From the NCBI GenBank assembly GCA_958372035.1, contig CATXML010000012.1, positions 1-15,329 of the forward strand: 15,329 nucleotides of DNA. Reading direction: 5' to 3'. Positions 4,527 through 15,329 of this stretch are shown here, one piece after another; position 1 is the first letter of the stretch; every line of letters begins with the position of its first letter. This DNA is from an uncultured Collinsella sp. (GTDB lineage Bacteria > Actinomycetota > Coriobacteriia > Coriobacteriales > Coriobacteriaceae). The notes under the pieces are model-generated. The model was given only the letters and a program-made list of their open reading frames with translations. It did no database searches and was not told the origin of the DNA. The position numbers and the translations under genes were made by a program.

Positions 4527-4550
4527 GGCTATCTACAAACCCCCTAGGCC

Positions 4551-4620
4551 ACTCATTGGGGACAGACTTAAATGACTAGTTGTTGGGGATCAGTCATTGG
4601 GGACGTTCTTAAATGACTAG
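4551..4620. repeat. Two tandem REP-like palindromic units with GGGGAC core
   Basis: Two 29-base units, 4551-4579 and 4592-4620, agree at 25 positions and are separated by 12 bases. Each has the layout A(C/G)TCATT - GGGGAC(AGAC or GTTC) - TTAAATGACTAG. The second has perfect 7-base inverted arms, AGTCATT (4592-4598) and AATGACT (4612-4618); the first has one arm mismatch. The spacer repeats TTGGGGAT. Such GGGGAC palindromes resemble intergenic repeats associated with REP-associated tyrosine transposases (RAYT, Y1_Tnp). No such transposase is encoded in the window. Confidence 0.6.
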
Positions 4621-4635
4621 GTGTGGCTGCTTGGG

Positions 4636-5554: not shown

Positions 5555-7162
5555 ATGGGATCTGATGTGAAGATCGCGCGCGCGTTGATCTCGGTTACCG
5601 ATAAGACGGGCGTCGTCGATTTCGCACGGACGCTGGTCGATGACTTTGGCGTCGAGATCATCTCTACGGGCGGCACGGCTCGTGCCATCGAGGACGCGGG
5701 CGTTCCCGTAACCCCCATCGAGGAGTTCACGGGCTATCCCGAGATGATGGACGGCCGCGTTAAGACCCTGCACCCCAAGGTTCACGGCGCGCTGCTGGCC
5801 CGCCGCGATTCCGAGCAGCACATGCAGGAGGCCGCCCAGCACGGCATTAAGCTGATCGACCTGGTCGTCGTCAACCTGTACGAGTTCGAGAAGACCGTCG
5901 CCAACCCCGAGGTCACCTTCGCGGATGCCATCGAGCACATCGACATCGGTGGCCCCTCCATGTTGCGCTCTGCCGCCAAGAACGCCGCGAGCGTTACCGT
6001 CATCTCCGACCCGGCCGACTATGATGCCGTCCTGGCCGAGATGCGCGAGACCGGTGGCTGCACCACGCTTGCCACCCGTCGTCGCCTGCAGGTGAAGGTC
6101 TACCAGACCACCGCCGCCTACGACACGGCTATCTCCCGTTGGCTTGCCGCCCAGGCAAGCGACGTGGCGGACACCTCTGCCAAGCTCGAGATTTCGCTGG
6201 AGAAGGTCGACGACCTGCGCTATGGTGAGAATCCTCAGCAAAAGGCTACGGTCTACCGCTTTGCCGAGGGCTGCGAGAACACCGCGAGCTCTCAGTTCCC
6301 GCTTGTGGGCTCCGAGCAGATCCAGGGCAAGCCGCTCAGCTACAACAACTATCTGGACGCCGATGCCGCCTGGAACCTGGTCCGCGAGTTCGACGAGCCG
6401 GCCTGCGTGATCCTCAAGCATCAGAACCCCTGCGGTTCCGCCGTTGCCGAGGGCATCACGGCCGCCTACGACCGCGCTTTCGCCTGCGATCCCAAGAGCG
6501 CCTTCGGCGGCATCATCGCCTGCAACCGCGAGGTTCCCTTTGAGCTGGTTGAGCACTTTGCCGATCAGAACAAGCAGTTCGTCGAGGTCATCATCGCCCC
6601 GGGCTACACCGCCGAGGCGCTCGAGCGCATGGCCAAGCGCCCCAACCTGCGCGTGCTGGCTACCGGCGGCGTGGACCACGGTGCCCAAGTGGAGCTGCGC
6701 TCCATCGACGGCGGCATGCTGGTGCAGGAAGTCGACCACGTGACCGAGGATCCCGCGACCTTTACGTTCCCCACCGACCGCAAGCCCACCGATGCCGAAA
6801 TGGCCGAGCTCGAGTTTGCCTGGAAGGTCTGCAAGGGCGTCAAGTCCAATGCTATCCTGGTCTCCAAGGGCAAGGCCGGCATTGGCATGGGCCCGGGTCA
6901 GCCTAACCGCGTTGACTCTGCACTGCTTGCCTGCGAGCGTGCCGAGGACTTCTGCGAGCGCGAGGGCGTGGAGAAGGGCGGCTTTGCTTGCGCAAGCGAC
7001 GCGTTCTTCCCGTTCCGCGACAACGTCGACGTGCTTGCCGCGCACGGCGTGACCTGCATCATCCAGCCCGGCGGCTCCAAGCGTGACGACGAGAGCATCC
7101 AGGCCTGCAACGAGCATGGTATTGCGATGGTCTTCACCGGAGCCAGGCATTTTAGGCACTAG
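5555..7162 (+). CDS. purH: Bifunctional AICAR transformylase / IMP cyclohydrolase
   Basis: PurH carries out the last two steps of IMP synthesis: formylation of AICAR using 10-formyltetrahydrofolate, then ring closure of FAICAR to IMP. The 535-residue length is normal. The N-terminal MGS-like cyclohydrolase domain shows [10 protein letters not shown] (10-19), [14 protein letters not shown] (37-50) and [18 protein letters not shown] (67-84). The transformylase domain shows LRYGENPQQ (221-229), [12 protein letters not shown] (262-273), the catalytic KH within KHQNPCG (288-294), [13 protein letters not shown] (312-324), the KGVKSNAI segment (427-434), [10 protein letters not shown] (447-456) and the C-terminal ending TGARHFRH. 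All key residues are present. The ATG at 5555 is preceded by a strong AGGAGG six bases away. No other purine gene adjoins it, so it appears monocistronic. Its stop codon runs directly into a structured element. Confidence 0.97.
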
Positions 7163-7264
7163 AGGCTTTCCCAAGCACCCGACCTTGCCCCTCAAACCGT
7201 CGCTTGCGTACATTTAGTACGCGGCGCTCCTCTTTCGGGGCAATCTCGGGCACTTGGAAAACCC
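7163..7264 (+). repeat. Structured 3'-flanking element, copy 1 (after purH)
   Basis: One base after the purH stop, an approximately 100-base multi-stem hairpin begins. Outer stem: GGCTTTCCCAAG (7164-7175) with CTTGGAAAACCC (7253-7264), 10 of 12 paired. A CA/CA internal loop follows. Second stem: CCCGA (7178-7182) with TCGGG (7246-7250). A CC/TC internal loop follows. Third stem: TTGCCCC (7185-7191) with GGGGCAA (7237-7243). A large internal loop has TCAAACCGT on the left and CTCCTCTTTC (7227-7236) on the right. Apical stem: GCGTAC (7206-7211) with GTACGC (7217-7222). The same architecture with different stem bases follows pcrA (15125-15225). No U-run follows, so it is not a classical terminator. 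Whether RNA or DNA carries the function is unknown. Confidence 0.75.
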
Positions 7265-7292
7265 TTAATGGGATGTTTCTCTATCCCATTAA
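7265..7292. repeat. Perfect 10-bp hairpin adjoining the post-purH element
   Basis: TTAATGGGAT (7265-7274) and ATCCCATTAA (7283-7292) form a perfect stem with an 8-base loop (GTTTCTCT). It abuts the structured element. It lacks a T-run, so it is probably not a stand-alone terminator. Confidence 0.6.
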
Positions 7293-7333
7293 ACTGTTCG
7301 GTCGCCTGACCATATCGTCAAAATAATCTCTGC

Positions 7334-7369
7334 AAAAGACGGCTGCTCCGTTTGGAGGGCCGTCTTTTT
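7334..7369 (+). terminator. Rho-independent terminator between purH and the next gene
   Basis: AAAAGACGGC (7334-7343) pairs with GCCGTCTTTT (7359-7368). An inner CTCC/GGAG stem around GTTT continues the helix, and the right arm merges into a run of five T. It ends only 16 bases before the next start codon, so it terminates purH transcription or works as an attenuator for the next gene. Confidence 0.85.
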
Positions 7370-7385
7370 GGTATAAGAGGACGGA

Positions 7386-8117
7386 ATGACTAACACGAAA
7401 GGTACAACCATGCCCCAGATTGATGATGCCGAGCTGTTTGGCAATGCCGAGGATCAGCGTGCGTACGAGGACTTTTGCGCCAATCAGGAGGCGGTCGAGA
7501 AGTTCACGCTCGACAAGCCCGCGCTTGTCTGCCGTTGGCGCATGTCCAACAAAAAGGTGCCCATGCTCAACCGTCACATCCGTGCGCTGTCCGAGCGCCT
7601 GGTGCAGGGCGAGCTACTTACCCATAACATGCTCAGCTGGGCCAAGCAGCACGTTGAGTGGTCGCTAGCCGAGGGCGATTACACCGCACACGACGGTGTG
7701 CTCATGCTGGTGATCGACATCAACGGCAACGCCGCCATGACAGTGGGGGAGTACGAGCCGCTCGCCGATACGTCGGCCAAGGCGCTGCGTGCCCGCTCCG
7801 CCGAGGCCCGCTCCGAAGCCGACGAGACCGGCGTGGCGCCCGAGCTGCTCGCCGCCGTCAACAACGGCGAACTCGCCTTTGTGGCGCCGGCGGACGAGTG
7901 CCTGTGCGGCACGGCGACGCTCATCGAGCAGCTGGCCCAGACCAAGGGCATCCCGGTCACGCGCGTAGATATTCCCGCGCAGCTTAAGGGCGCGCTGTTC
8001 CTGGTGAGCGACGAGCACGGCGTGGTCCCCGCAACCGAGACGGACGCCGCCGAGGCCGACGCCGCCACGGTCGCCTTCTTTGTCGACGGCTACGAAAAGC
8101 TTCGCGCCCGCCGCTAA
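7386..8117 (+). CDS. Uncharacterised protein, family not recognised
   Basis: I do not recognise this family. The product is 243 residues from the ATG at 7386 (SD-like AGAGGA four bases upstream) or 235 from the ATG at 7410 (GAAAGG seven bases upstream). It has no signal peptide or transmembrane segment and looks like a soluble cytoplasmic protein. The N-terminal half (to about residue 130) is mixed alpha/beta with a conserved-looking stretch LVCRWRMSNKKVPMLNRHIR followed by LLTHNMLSWAKQHVEW and GVLMLVIDINGNAAMTVGEY. A Glu/Ala-rich linker leads to a C-terminal half with ADECLCGTATLIEQLAQTKG and a final VAFFVDGYEKLRARR. Codon use matches the neighbours, so it looks like a genuine native gene. 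A TATAAG box at 7372-7377 could be its -10. It is flanked by the purH terminator and a REP-like palindrome that begins at its stop codon. Confidence 0.8.
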   Translation: MTNTKGTTMPQIDDAELFGNAEDQRAYEDFCANQEAVEKFTLDKPALVCRWRMSNKKVPMLNRHIRALSERLVQGELLTHNMLSWAKQHVEWSLAEGDYTAHDGVLMLVIDINGNAAMTVGEYEPLADTSAKALRARSAEARSEADETGVAPELLAAVNNGELAFVAPADECLCGTATLIEQLAQTKGIPVTRVDIPAQLKGALFLVSDEHGVVPATETDAAEADAATVAFFVDGYEKLRARR

Positions 8118-10909: not shown

Positions 10910-11890
10910 TTGGATATTATCGAGCTTCTAAAATCTGCCTTCATGGGCCTGGTCGAGGGCATCACCGAATGGCTGCCCGTTTCGTCGACGGGTCACATGA
11001 TCTTGGTGGACGAGTTCGTCAAGATGAACGTGAGCGAGACGTTCTGGAATATGTTCCTGGTCGTGATTCAGCTCGGCGCCATTCTGGCCGTCTGTGTGCT
11101 GTTCTTCCATGAGCTCAATCCGTTCTCGCCCAGCAAGGGCAAGGAGGGCCGCCGCGACACCTGGGTGCTGTGGGGCAAGATTGTGCTCGGCTGCATTCCT
11201 GCGGCGGCGATCGGCCTGCCGCTCAACGACTGGATGGAGGAGCATTTCTACAATGCCCCCGTCGTGGCGCTGGCGCTCATTGTGTACGGCGTGCTGTTTA
11301 TCGTGATCGAGAACTGGCGCGCGAGCAAGCGCGAGGAAATGGCCGTTGCCGGTTCGTTTGGTTCGCGTGCTGTGGTGTCGGGTGGACGTCCTGCCGGTGC
11401 GCACTTTGCGGCGTCCGCCGCGGCTACCGCCGAGGATGAGGACGATGACGATAACCTGGACTTTGGCTCCATCACTACGCTCGAGGACCTGAGCTGGAAG
11501 ACTGCGCTGGGTATCGGCTGCTTCCAGGTGCTTTCGCTGGTGCCTGGTACGTCTCGTTCCGGTTCTACCATCATCGGTGGCCTGCTTTTGGGCTGCACGC
11601 GTTCGGTGGCGTCTAAGTTCACGTTCTTCCTGGCTATTCCCGTTATGTTTGGCGCAAGTGCGCTCAAGCTGGTCAAGTACTTCATCAAGGGCGGCACGTT
11701 CGGCACCAACGAGATCGCCATCTTGGGCGTGGGCTGCGTTGTGGCCTTTGTGGTTTCGCTCATCGCCATCAAGTGGCTCATGGGCTTCGTTCGCCGTCAC
11801 GACTTCAAGTGCTTCGGCGTCTACCGCATCATCCTGGGTATCGTGGTGCTTGCGTACTTCTTTGTCCTGGAGCCCATGCTCGGCCTGTAA
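10910..11890 (+). CDS. uppP: Undecaprenyl-diphosphate phosphatase
   Basis: UppP (BacA) is an integral membrane enzyme that dephosphorylates undecaprenyl diphosphate, recycling the lipid carrier for peptidoglycan and conferring bacitracin tolerance. From the TTG at 10910 the protein has 326 residues and starts MDIIELLKSAFMGLVEGITE, the usual family beginning. The frame is open upstream to a TTG at 10841, but those 23 residues are polar and atypical. Both catalytic signatures are present: EGITEWLPVSSTGH (16-29) and PGTSRSGSTI (212-221). Several hydrophobic helices fill the rest. It is about 50 residues longer than typical (roughly 270-280). The excess lies at about 138-188, between a helix and the LSWKTALGIG segment, as an Ala/Gly-rich stretch ending in a strongly acidic EDEDDDDNLD. 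A very strong terminator follows. The gene stands alone. Confidence 0.95.
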   Translation: MDIIELLKSAFMGLVEGITEWLPVSSTGHMILVDEFVKMNVSETFWNMFLVVIQLGAILAVCVLFFHELNPFSPSKGKEGRRDTWVLWGKIVLGCIPAAAIGLPLNDWMEEHFYNAPVVALALIVYGVLFIVIENWRASKREEMAVAGSFGSRAVVSGGRPAGAHFAASAAATAEDEDDDDNLDFGSITTLEDLSWKTALGIGCFQVLSLVPGTSRSGSTIIGGLLLGCTRSVASKFTFFLAIPVMFGASALKLVKYFIKGGTFGTNEIAILGVGCVVAFVVSLIAIKWLMGFVRRHDFKCFGVYRIILGIVVLAYFFVLEPMLGL

Positions 11891-11934
11891 CTTGGTTGAC
11901 GCTGCACGGCGACCGGAGCGACAACTTGTCATTC

Positions 11935-11977
11935 AAAGGGGGCGGCATGACCAAAAGGTCTATGCCGCCCCCTTTTC
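11935..11977 (+). terminator. Strong terminator of uppP with bulged apical stem
   Basis: AAAGGGGGCGGCAT (11935-11948) pairs perfectly with ATGCCGCCCCCTTT (11962-11975), followed by a further T. Inside, GACC/GGTC (11949-11952 with 11957-11960) closes an AAAA loop, with one bulged T at 11961. The apical part recurs almost unchanged at 15165-15187. Confidence 0.9.
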
Positions 11978-12223
11978 ATGCCAATTTGTTCGCCCTGGCC
12001 GCCGCTCGCTGCTGCTGCCATGACATCGGCGGTTTCGTGATTGTCGATAGATTGGTTCAAAGTAACCTGACACCTTTGCACCAAATTCGCTGGGGTGGGC
12101 CTGACGGCGGCGCACGGAGTCGTGGTGTGATTTGCGTCGGTGTCCGCGCGGCTCGGTATACTGATACGGCTCAAACTATGGCGCTGCCCGCAGGCGCGCC
12201 GTCCGTCAGATGAGGAGTCGCCC
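11978..12223. other. Spacer upstream of pcrA with REP-like palindrome and promoter candidate
   Basis: No gene is supported here. At about 12057-12078 the sequence TTCAAAGTAACCTGACACC followed by TTTGCA forms an imperfect palindrome with arms CAAAG and CTTTG. On the minus strand it reads AAAGGTGTCAGGTTAC, a form seen in RAYT-associated repeats of many bacteria. A TATACT -10 candidate lies at 12157-12162. Confidence 0.45.
12132..12162 (+). promoter_or_regulatory. Candidate pcrA promoter
   Basis: TATACT at 12157-12162 is a near-consensus -10 box. TTGCGT at 12132-12137 is a moderate -35 with a 19-base spacer. Transcription would start near 12169, giving a leader of about 55 bases before the ATG at 12224. 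Confidence 0.4.
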
Positions 12224-15124
12224 ATGACCCAGTCCCTGCCCTGGGAAAAGAACACTGCCGCGCCCGTGTCGCCCGCGCCGGAGCCCGTGCCGCTCGATGC
12301 GTACACCGTCCCCGCCGCGCCGGAACCCGAGCTCGTTCCGCTCGACATCTACGACGCCCCGGCTCCGGCGCCCAAGCCCGCCAAGCCGTTCGTCGATATC
12401 GATAGCCTGAACCCCGCCCAGCGCGAGGCGGTCCTGACCACTGAGGGCCCACTGCTGGTCCTTGCCGGTGCTGGCTCGGGCAAGACCCGCGTCCTGACCT
12501 TCCGCATCGCACATATGCTTGGCGACCTGGGCGTTAAGCCCTGGCAGGTCCTGGCCATCACGTTTACCAACAAGGCCGCGGCCGAGATGCGCGAGCGTCT
12601 GGCAGCACTCATCCCCAGTGGCACCCGCGGCATGTGGGTGTGCACCTTCCACGCCATGTGCGTGCGCATGCTGCGCGAGGACGCCGACCTGCTGGGCTAC
12701 ACCGGTCAGTTCACCATCTATGACGACGATGACTCAAAGCGCATGGTGCGTGACATTATGCAGGCGCTCGGCATTGAGCAAAAGCAGTTCCCCATCAACA
12801 TGATCCGCAGCAAGATCAGCTCGGCCAAAAACGCCATGATTGGGCCCGAGGACATGCTCAAGAGCGCCGATAGCCCCAACGACAAAAAGGCCGCGCAGGT
12901 CTACCTGGAGCTGGAGCGCCGCCTGCGCGCCGCCAACGCGATGGACTTTGACGACCTGCTCGTGCGCGCTCTCGAGCTGCTGCGCACCCGCCCCGAGGTG
13001 CTCGATAAGTACCAGGAGCGCTTCCGCTACATTAGCGTCGACGAGTATCAGGACACCAACCACGTCCAATACGAGATCGCCAACCTGTTGGCCGCCAAGT
13101 ACCAAAACCTTATGGTCGTGGGCGACGACGACCAGTCCATTTATAGCTGGCGCGGCGCCGACATCACCAATATCCTGGACTTTGAGAAGGACTTTAAAAA
13201 CTGCAAGACCGTCAAGCTGGAGCAGAACTACCGCTCCACGGGTCATATCCTGAGCGCCGCCAACGCCGTGGTGCGTCACAACTCGCAGCGTAAAGAAAAG
13301 CGCCTGTTTACGGCCGAGGGCGACGGCGAGAAGATCCAGGCCTTCCAGGCAAGCGATGAGCGCGACGAGGGCCGCTGGATTGCCGGCGAGATCGAAAAGC
13401 TGCATGCCAAGGGCACGAGCTACGACGATATCGCTGTGTTCTACCGCACCAACGCCCAGTCGCGTATTCTCGAAGATATGTTCCTGCGCGCGGGCGTGCC
13501 CTACAAGATCGTCGGCGGCACGCGATTCTTCGACCGCGCCGAGATCCGCGACGTCATGGCCTACCTCAAGATGATCGTGAACCCGGCCGACGAGATGAGC
13601 GTCAAGCGCGTCATCAACACGCCGCGTCGCGGCATCGGCTCCACCTCGATTCAAAAGATCGAGCAGCTGGCGCGCGACAACCGTTGCTCGTTCTTCCAGG
13701 CCTGCGAGATTGCGTGCGCCGAGACGGGCATGTTTAGCGCCAAGGTCCGCAATGGCCTGTCGAGCTTTGTGTCGCTGGTGCGCGAGGGCCGCCGCATGGA
13801 CGGCGAGCTCAAGGACGTTGTCGAGATGATTGTCGATAAGACGGGCCTGCTGCAGGCGTTTCGCGCCGAGGGCACCATGGAATCCGAGAGCCGCGCCGAG
13901 AACATCCAGGAATTCCTGGGCGTGGCCGCCGAATTTGAGGAGACGCACGAGGATATCGAGGGTACGCTCGAGAGCTTAGAGGAGCTGCGCGCGGCCGGTG
14001 TTGCCGACGTGCCTGCCGGCGCCGAGCCCGAACCCGTCGTGGTGAGCGCACCTGCGCCCGAGCCGGGACCGTCTGCCCCGGTATCCTCGTTTGAGGCGCT
14101 CGTTGGCGCGCGTGATGCCGCAGGTTCCAATCCGCTCGATAGCCTAGCCGCCCCGGCGCTCTCGCCGCAGGATGCCCTGGCCGCCGCCATTGCGGGCAAC
14201 GCGTATGCCGCGCCGACGGAGATGCCGGCGGGTGCCGTGCATGTCGACGAGATCGAGCGCACCTACGGTCCGCTCACCTGTAAGGCGCTTCCTGCTCTCA
14301 TGGAGTGGCTGGCCCTGCGCTCCGACTTGGATTCCCTGGCCGGCGAGACGCATGCCATCACCATGATGACCATCCACTCCGCCAAGGGCCTGGAGTTCCC
14401 CGCGGTGTTCGTGGCCGGTATGGAGGAGGGCATCTTCCCACACGTGCATGACTTTGGCGGCAGCGATGATCCGGGCAAGCTCGAGGAGGAGCGTCGCCTG
14501 GCCTACGTTGCCATCACGCGTGCCCGCAAGCGCCTGTTCCTGACCTATGCGGCCACGCGTCGCACCTACGGCTCGACCTCTGCCAACCCGCGCTCGCGCT
14601 TCCTTAACGAGATTCCGTTTGAGGATATCGAGTTTAGCGGCATCGGTTCTGCCGGTTTTGAGGGCACGGGCTGGGAAAAGCGCGGCGACCGTCACGGCAC
14701 CTTTGGCTCGGGCATGGGCTCGGATATGTATGGCGGCAAGGTGTTTGGTTCGCATACGCGCTCGACCGGCGGCTCCGGCTCGCGCGGCGGGTCGAGCTTT
14801 GACGACTTCTTTGGCGGCAGCAGCTATGGGACCGAGCGCCATCGTGGGGTTTCGCCTGACGCCGGCCGCGTTGCCTCGACCTTTGGCTCGGGCGCGCCGC
14901 GAGCCAAAAAGCCGTCGTCCAAGGTGTCGCCGACGGTGGAGCGCAAGGTCGATCGCACCAGCGCGTCGCAGGACTTTGCCGCGGGCGATACCGTGAGTCA
15001 CAAGACCTTTGGCACGGGTACCGTGATCTCGGTCGCCGGAGACATGATCGAGGTTCAATTCGAAAAGACCGGCCAGACCAAAAAGCTGATGAAGGGCTTT
15101 GCGCCTATAGTGAAACTGACCTAG
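12224..15124 (+). CDS. pcrA: ATP-dependent DNA helicase PcrA/UvrD
   Basis: This is a superfamily 1A 3'-5' helicase for DNA repair and clearing of replication or transcription conflicts. From the ATG at 12224 (GAGGAG seven bases upstream) it has 966 residues, well above the usual 720-780. Motifs: Walker A AGAGSGKT (81-88), Ia FTNKAAAEM (114-122), Ib TFHAMC (141-146), II VDEYQDT (272-278), III GDDDQSIYSWRGAD (300-313), IV QNYRSTGHIL (334-343), V MTIHSAKGLEFP (715-726), VI YVAITRARKRL (761-771). The C-terminal AGDTVSHKTFGTGTVISV (920-937) begins the small Tudor-like domain that binds RNA polymerase in PcrA. Three additions explain the length: a Pro-rich N-terminal arm (1-56) with a repeated PLDxYxxPA motif, an Ala/Pro-rich insert (about 590-690) just before motif V, and a Gly/Ser-rich linker (about 805-890). 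The frame opens at 12140, but upstream codons lack a binding site. Confidence 0.96.
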   Translation: MTQSLPWEKNTAAPVSPAPEPVPLDAYTVPAAPEPELVPLDIYDAPAPAPKPAKPFVDIDSLNPAQREAVLTTEGPLLVLAGAGSGKTRVLTFRIAHMLGDLGVKPWQVLAITFTNKAAAEMRERLAALIPSGTRGMWVCTFHAMCVRMLREDADLLGYTGQFTIYDDDDSKRMVRDIMQALGIEQKQFPINMIRSKISSAKNAMIGPEDMLKSADSPNDKKAAQVYLELERRLRAANAMDFDDLLVRALELLRTRPEVLDKYQERFRYISVDEYQDTNHVQYEIANLLAAKYQNLMVVGDDDQSIYSWRGADITNILDFEKDFKNCKTVKLEQNYRSTGHILSAANAVVRHNSQRKEKRLFTAEGDGEKIQAFQASDERDEGRWIAGEIEKLHAKGTSYDDIAVFYRTNAQSRILEDMFLRAGVPYKIVGGTRFFDRAEIRDVMAYLKMIVNPADEMSVKRVINTPRRGIGSTSIQKIEQLARDNRCSFFQACEIACAETGMFSAKVRNGLSSFVSLVREGRRMDGELKDVVEMIVDKTGLLQAFRAEGTMESESRAENIQEFLGVAAEFEETHEDIEGTLESLEELRAAGVADVPAGAEPEPVVVSAPAPEPGPSAPVSSFEALVGARDAAGSNPLDSLAAPALSPQDALAAAIAGNAYAAPTEMPAGAVHVDEIERTYGPLTCKALPALMEWLALRSDLDSLAGETHAITMMTIHSAKGLEFPAVFVAGMEEGIFPHVHDFGGSDDPGKLEEERRLAYVAITRARKRLFLTYAATRRTYGSTSANPRSRFLNEIPFEDIEFSGIGSAGFEGTGWEKRGDRHGTFGSGMGSDMYGGKVFGSHTRSTGGSGSRGGSSFDDFFGGSSYGTERHRGVSPDAGRVASTFGSGAPRAKKPSSKVSPTVERKVDRTSASQDFAAGDTVSHKTFGTGTVISVAGDMIEVQFEKTGQTKKLMKGFAPIVKLT

Positions 15125-15225
15125 GCGGCTTTCCCAGGCACGGCACCTCGGCCTTCAATCGTCGGGCATGACCTCAAGGTCTATGCCCTCCTCTTTCAGG
15201 CCGATCTGCCGCACCTGGAAAACCC
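15125..15225 (+). repeat. Structured 3'-flanking element, copy 2 (after pcrA)
   Basis: This copy starts two bases after the pcrA stop. Outer stem: GGCTTTCCCAGG (15127-15138) with CCTGGAAAACCC (15214-15225). CA/CA loop. Second stem: CGGCA (15141-15145) with TGCCG (15207-15211). CC/TC loop. Third stem: TCGGCCT (15148-15154) with AGGCCGA (15198-15204). Internal loop: TCAATCGT on the left and TCCTCTTTC (15189-15197) on the right. Apical stem: GGGCAT-GACC (15164-15173) with GGTC-T-ATGCCC (15178-15188). Stem lengths and loop sequences match the post-purH copy while most paired bases differ, which is compensatory variation. Confidence 0.75.
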
Positions 15226-15285
15226 GTACATCCGGCTAGGCGGGCGCGCCGGGGGCTTTGGTCGCCTGCTCGGGCAGTCCTGCTC

Positions 15286-15329
15286 GCACGGAGAGCACAT
15301 TAAGTGCTCTCCGGCTCGTGCGGAACTCG
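15286..15329. repeat. Inverted repeat at the right edge, incomplete
   Basis: CGGAGAGCAC (15289-15298) and GTGCTCTCCG (15304-15313) form a perfect 10-bp stem around ATTAA. Flanking GCTCGCA and GCTCGTGCGG suggest further outer pairing that continues past the window end. No T-run follows within view, so its role as a terminator is undecided. Confidence 0.55.

Follow-up and report, generated by a model that had tools for sequence, protein, structure and literature searches.

The 15,329-nt stretch analyzed here, called the window, comes from an uncultured Collinsella sp. (assembly GCA_958372035.1, contig CATXML010000012.1) and carries purH, uppP and a pcrA/uvrD-type helicase gene, each followed by a copy of a palindromic element of about 100 nt (Table 1). 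The copies behind purH and pcrA had been recognized in a preliminary description of the window, and both structures are real, with boundaries corrected from 7163-7264 to 7164-7264 and from 15125-15225 to 15127-15225. As it had stated, they stand right after stop codons, at +1 nt from the purH TAG (7160-7162) and +2 nt from the pcrA TAG (15122-15124), and the loops and ends that it listed agree with our reading (GGCTTTCCCA/TGGAAAACCC, CA/CA, CC/TC and TCAAnCGTC/TCCTCTTTC). Two features had been overlooked: a third, degraded copy behind uppP (36.0 bits, E 1.7e-6 with the covariance model R1, described below), and the better fold of the strand opposite the gene.

Table 1. Features of the window that bear on the palindromic element.
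Feature	Position	Strand	Evidence or remark
purH, gene upstream of copy 1	5555-7162	+	TIGR00355, 626 bits (cut-off 528)
Copy 1 of the element (101 nt, type A)	7164-7264	- (better-folding strand)	R1 110.2 bits on - vs 43.0 on +, the model having been built on the - strand
Copy 1, outer helix, 5' arm	7164-7182	+	Partner 7246-7264; fold, pairing diagram
Copy 1, internal loop, side TCAAACCGTC	7192-7201	+	Opposite side 7228-7236 (TCCTCTTTC); pairing diagram
Copy 1, apical hairpin	7202-7227	+	Fold
Terminator-like inverted repeat with T run	7334-7371	+	About 70 nt past copy 1; read from the letters
Flank box GACGCTGC	11898-11905	+	Same box as in type B and f3 elements, 5' of their large hairpin
Degraded copy 3, type B/C	11907-12004	-	16 nt past the uppP stop (11888-11890)
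pcrA/uvrD-type helicase gene, upstream of copy 2	12140-15124	+	Best family TIGR01073, 849 bits, below its cut-off of 911; start at 12224 by the codon-score gene finder
Copy 2 of the element (99 nt, type A), 3' of pcrA	15127-15225	-	R1 105.4 bits; fold

An intrinsic terminator was considered and rejected, as neither copy 1 nor copy 2 has a T/U run after its stem. Copy 1 is probably not itself the terminator, since a terminator-like repeat lies beyond it; a rule that took only loops of 3 to 8, and thus did not score this repeat, returned 0 terminators in 7050-7500. Between copy 1 and the repeat there is a perfect 10-bp hairpin at 7265-7291 (TTAATGGGAT...ATCCCATTAA), and a sequence related to it (GGGATGTTATCTCGTCCC) comes after the type A' version of the element in other strains.

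A scan of species genomes with an exact-end pattern returned 59 stretches, 47 of them from Collinsella or near kin; the other 12, from unrelated organisms, were judged by eye to be chance matches. The covariance model R1, made from 24 copies including both of the window, matched 24 places in G001, the nearest genome examined (25 rows, one place being matched on both strands). Matches were present in 35/39 genomes of Collinsella, the highest total for one genome being 35 rows. Among Coriobacteriia as a whole, 57 of 158 genomes and 21 of 80 genera were positive. All but one of these genomes (56) belong to families f1, f2 and f3 of the order, and one single match falls in f6; we take f3 to be Eggerthellaceae, and the assignment of f2 is likewise presumptive. 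In a sample of the phylum, R1 was found in 8/197 genomes, 8/8 in the same order. Copies are thus many genome-wide; only two would have refuted the preliminary description. The element apparently constitutes an undescribed family of dispersed, shape-conserved sequences of about 100 nt in several families of one order.

In its complete f3 form, the element is ordered as small hairpin, CGACGCTGC, 100-nt hairpin and TCGCTGAC tail. Type B copies of Collinsella have this plan in common with f3, and in both it starts at the stop codon: the small hairpin, about 27 nt long (GTTnCG...CGnAAC), lies within about 6 nt of the stop, a short spacer leads to CGACGCTGC and the large hairpin, and the tail after TCGCTGAC is often TTACTACGCCAACCTG. 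In type B and f3, CGCTG repeats stand on both flanks of the large hairpin. The small hairpin is missing from some copies. Type A, the form of copies 1 and 2, mostly consists of the large hairpin by itself. At one locus in each of two genera (L333 at G115 1445580, L358 at G152 421826), the small hairpin has the stop codon in its loop, and the last four codons thus belong to the structure. Tandem arrangements 3' of purH, made of two or three complete or partial elements, occur in other Collinsella species (L226 in G028, L219 in G008). A 12-kb interval of G115 (C1 545001-557000, L385) has 50% G+C, as against 63-71% in the other 19 sampled, and is probably foreign DNA.

Both window copies fold far better than shuffled sequences, none of 200 shuffles folding as well for each copy and strand (7163-7264, 15125-15225). 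For copies 1 and 2, respectively, the RNA fold z was -6.0 and -6.5 on the + strand and -8.1 and -10.3 on the - strand, with energies of -45 and -50 kcal/mol on + vs -61 and -70 on -. Folded as DNA, copy 1 gave -30.9 (-) vs -23.5 (+) kcal/mol and copy 2 -32.5 (-) vs -25.7 (+). The compensatory stem differences noted in the preliminary description were borne out in 24 related sequences, in which 13 of 36 pairs are changed on both sides. In the same set, 0/500 shuffles reached four of five covariation measures, 5/500 reached the remaining one, which counts further pair types, and with partners slid the paired fraction falls to 32-50%, vs 96% in the true register. RNAalifold was run on 21 f3 copies, taken from the only 24 of 125 elements that passed a complete-element pattern with the tail at fixed length; it found 47 pairs on the - strand, 28 doubly changed (-90 kcal/mol), and 42 on the + strand, 24 doubly changed (-67 kcal/mol). 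Between subfamilies, the stems differ almost completely while the pairing stays. Selection on base pairing is supported.

Which strand folds cannot be told from the loop letters alone, because C.A on one strand is G.U on the other. Read on the - strand, the C.A mismatches of the + loops become G.U and the C.T mismatches tandem G.A; the CA/CA loop is then a tandem U.G/G.U and another C.A of the outer stem a U.G. The 9x9 loop of the copy-2 type reads, by inspection of this strand, G.A A.G A-U A-U G.A A.G G-C G.A A.G, with three tandem G.A pairs. Loops of the copy-1 type are longer by a single base on one side; in copy 1 itself, the - strand reading gives steps of G.A, A-U and G-C. Variable stem positions, by contrast, do tell the strands apart, and we compared them in an arm alignment that scored every mismatch alike. 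Isolated mismatches read on the - strand were G.U in 77 cases vs A.C in 16 among 52 f3 elements (52 of the 55 in G115 and G152, three having no locus; G117 and G111 were left out), and 65 vs 15 without the conserved wobble site at arm positions 12-15, though such counts are not independent events because the copies are related. Counted by arm position instead of by copy, the excess was smaller (23 with G.U, 14 with A.C). The 21-copy f3 alignment gave 18 vs 6 distinct column-by-type cases (p 0.023) on a structure that had been predicted on the - strand, and its small hairpin was without strand bias (4 vs 5). In Collinsella and its near relatives (123 distinct sequences), G.U outnumbered A.C by 55 to 30; outside stem positions 4-7 the excess was gone (28 vs 27). 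In f3 the mismatches thus point strongly to the - strand; in Collinsella they do so weakly. On the same strand, the apical loop is UUCG in 9/21 f3 sequences.

Placement right after stop codons, described at first for the window copies, holds well beyond them. Of 125 elements from five genomes, 84 have the end of an ORF between -6 and +20 nt from their 5' boundary, as against 29 of 125 in a mirror control; the count took ORFs of at least 70 codons and codon-score gene calls, and the small-hairpin finder misplaced a few boundaries. In three Collinsella genomes, 55 of 73 elements are within 60 nt of an upstream sense gene, 5 are reversed and 13 unclear. Targeting of the stop codon itself was not upheld: the adjoining stops (TAG 45, TAA 32, TGA 7) show a weak preference only relative to sampled genes (274, 197 and 118).

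The element is also oriented with replication. In the complete f3 genomes G115 and G152, whose replication arcs were taken from GC skew, the gene-sense strand of the element is the leading strand in 32/33 and 21/22 cases, whereas 73/139 and 30/44 sampled genes lie on that strand (p 5e-7 and 0.013). This bias does not rest on genes alone, since among the 52 elements of both genomes with context, 20 of the 21 without a detected sense stop are leading, as are 30 of the 31 with one. The bias is modest in the three Collinsella genomes (57/73 elements vs 303/502 genes, p 0.004, the origin of G023 being uncertain); being strong only in G115 and G152, it led us to reject a strict orientation by replication alone. 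These counts imply that the weakly folding strand is mostly the lagging-strand template and the strongly folding one the leading-strand template.

The preliminary description had offered a mobile palindrome as one possible reading, and comparisons of orthologous sites speak on both sides of it. Gain and replacement at single sites favor mobility. The element behind pcrA is carried by the window alone among 20 genomes and is missing in the 19 nearest relatives examined; farther away, it is present in G020, and an R1 match lies about 10 nt beyond pcrA in G024. When the window is counted together with the 19 genomes resembling C. aerofaciens, the purH 3' flank has four states, with 8 empty, 6 of type A (including the window), 4 of type A' and 2 of type B; in 11 more distant Collinsella, there is an element in G008, G028 and G020 (degraded) and none in the other 8. 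Three places in G001 (L075, L076 and L077) hold identical 100-mers. On the other side, the type B version of purH carries a different terminator and looks like a swap of the whole intergenic haplotype, so allele exchange is at work, and no target-site duplication was seen at purH or pcrA, the two sites examined.

Persistence and low divergence stand against pure mobility. Five orthologous gene pairs carry the element at the same spot in two genera, as seen from 22 upstream ORFs of G115 and 16 of G152. In one of them (1445580/421826), at least 3 base pairs are changed on both sides in the alignment as read by eye, and in another (G115 1108931/G152 722407), behind a gene that we take from its protein end to be frr, the large hairpin differs throughout and the adjoining small hairpin is identical. 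Five purH copies are identical over 101 nt and differ by 8-9% in their 60-nt flanks, though their selection by exact ends lowered the apparent divergence. The upstream gene families common to Collinsella and f3 number 4, which is suggestive only.

We tentatively read the element, at somewhat below even probability, as a dispersed, slowly mobile and partly domesticated palindrome of Coriobacteriia, recognized by shape on the strand opposite the upstream gene. Its stems could take almost any paired sequence, while the loops, flank boxes and apical hairpin would be kept. Where a genome has a clear bias, the gene-opposite strand, which would form the shape, is the leading-strand template; the folded molecule would be single-stranded DNA rather than RNA. 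The orientation may be kept because a fold-competent strand on the lagging-strand template would form hairpins in every round of replication, as reported for the attC sites of chromosomal integrons (PMC5371416). A recombinase or transposase would move the element, and a copy, once settled, may be of use to the gene before it, in the simplest case by marking a boundary behind the stop codon. No transposase could be tied to it among 20 RAYT loci and the Y1 hits in the genomes examined. Constraint on shape, folding of one strand, that strand's absence from the lagging-strand template and a place after genes together make up the attC pattern, which favors a DNA hairpin element that would be slow to move or be exchanged and would be retained at gene ends. 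Nothing in the data separates DNA from RNA folding, and the apical UUCG would suit RNA.

The main rival, which we hold to be unlikely, is a noncoding RNA of the - strand, or a structure in antisense transcripts, with a role in protecting or silencing the gene's 3' end. The G.U excess on the - strand, the tandem G.A loop and the UUCG apical loop all speak for it. Set against it are the lack of a promoter-like site around copy 1 (scored against the sigma-70 consensus only) and the little room at G014 337966 and G023 1660956, where the next co-directional gene is 38 nt away, and it leaves the orientation with replication unexplained. A structure in the 3' UTR of the sense mRNA appears slightly less likely still; it would act in 3'-end stability, a reading offered in the preliminary description, as an RNase III site or in the insulation of cistrons. 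It would agree with the sense position after stops, the divergence below that of the flanks and the + strand fold z of about -6. However, mismatches tend to break the pairs of the + strand and keep those of the - strand, which the consensus fold also favors, and 20 of the 21 elements without a detected sense stop still follow replication. This sense reading is weaker than the antisense one because its own strand's pairs tend to be broken.

It is quite unlikely, in our estimate, that the copies are chromosome-wide, replication-oriented and strand-specific DNA hairpins at gene ends, on the leading-strand template, serving either as attC-like recombination sites scattered over core genes and used by a recombinase, or as sites of leading-strand restart. 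The CGCTG repeats and the swapped large hairpin beside an unchanged small one (1108931/722407) would fit a swappable module. Movement by RAYT (Y1 HUH) transposases, as for REP/BIME-like elements, is very improbable and largely refuted as a general agency, even though R1 matches number 0 to 7 in the six Collinsella genomes that lack a Y1 hit. None of the 20 RAYT loci (about 3.6 kb each) has an R1 match at E 1, several of the 14 RAYT flanks inspected bear other repeats, Y1 is missing from at least five genomes for which 8 to 26 matches are listed (G082, G097, G101, G117, G048), and the element has no GTAG tag and is 100 nt long rather than 20-40. On these grounds we rejected RAYT as the general mover. 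Neutral palindromes whose pairing is kept by template switching are scarcely credible: whole arms do differ among copies and among relatives, but quasipalindrome correction would erase the conserved + mismatches (C.A, CC/TC, the large internal loop), which persist in copies of many genomes.

Families of the YPAL/ERIC type are made up of members with a consensus sequence in common, unlike the present element, the stems of which are almost free and only the loops, boxes and pairing of which are kept. It may also differ from them in its strong orientation with replication in f3, and no target duplication was found at purH/pcrA. The end boxes of attC sites, RYYYAAC...GTTRRRY, are missing from the window copies, and membership in attC is rejected; copies are moreover dispersed singly, with no cassette array. 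The likeness to attC lies in a site that is poor in sequence and rich in structure and of which one strand folds, clearly in f3 and more weakly in Collinsella; PMC5371416 reports the attC bottom strand on the leading-strand template in 25/30 chromosomal integrons. YPAL/RU-2, ERIC and NEMIS are described as dispersed intergenic palindromes of about 100-200 bp in enterobacteria and neisseriae, with empty and filled sites known for YPAL (PMC2229807), and the present element resembles them in its long imperfect stem-loop, intergenic place, many copies and empty sites. Like GTAG/CGTC REPs, which are tagged palindromes of 20-40 bp mostly downstream of coding regions (PMC3733652), it is a palindromic repeat mostly downstream of genes; unlike them, it has a core of 99-101 nt with ends GGCTTTCCC/GGAAAACCC and no GTAG tag. 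According to the same source, GTAG REPs often supply the stop codon, and RAYT genes are flanked by GTAG or other inverted repeats.

With gathering scores, no Rfam 15 family was found at the elements in the window and seven further loci, in agreement with the preliminary description, which knew of no named motif with this plan. The sole match over cut-off was Ref55 in L248 (4619-4670, 43.2 vs 43), about 220 nt past pcrA in a flank without the element. The comparison with Collinsella-1 RNA (RF01700) that had been recommended shows the two to be distinct. This RNA has the same host genus and 196 positions (PMC2864571); it had no match at E 1 in the window or at 0.5 in the seven loci, and in five genomes its only strong copies (G014 980022, G023 3652) are away from R1 places, the remaining four rows being below cut-off. 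Our search of the literature, including Collinsella palindromic repeats and Collinsella-1, showed no paper on the element among the titles and abstracts listed; the motif may already stand in the tables of PMC8040213, in which human microbiomes are reported to have yielded 250 palindromic candidates (of 3161).

Dispersed palindromes of bacteria are usually described as families of sequence, whereas here a shape is conserved across several families of one order. The element has a strand polarity; its orientation follows the genes and, within a single family, also the replication fork. An old question thereby becomes testable in cultivable gut bacteria, namely, why such repeats are found where genes end and whether RNA or single-stranded DNA is the form in which they act. 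Annotation gains a compact family with strong covariation.

Other repeats accompany the element in the window. A second palindromic element lies directly 3' of the pcrA copy at 15226-15329, where it runs off the end, and 3' of pcrA also in L231, L232 and L248; its interior is constant (CCTGCTCGGGCAGTCCTGC...GGAACTCGCGAT), and its 20-nt arms change wholesale, both sides together, among close relatives. REP-like repeats (TCATTGGGGACAGACTTAAATGACTAG) at 4550-4624 and an inverted repeat at 4294-4328/4495-4529 resemble the RAYT-flanking repeats in L269.
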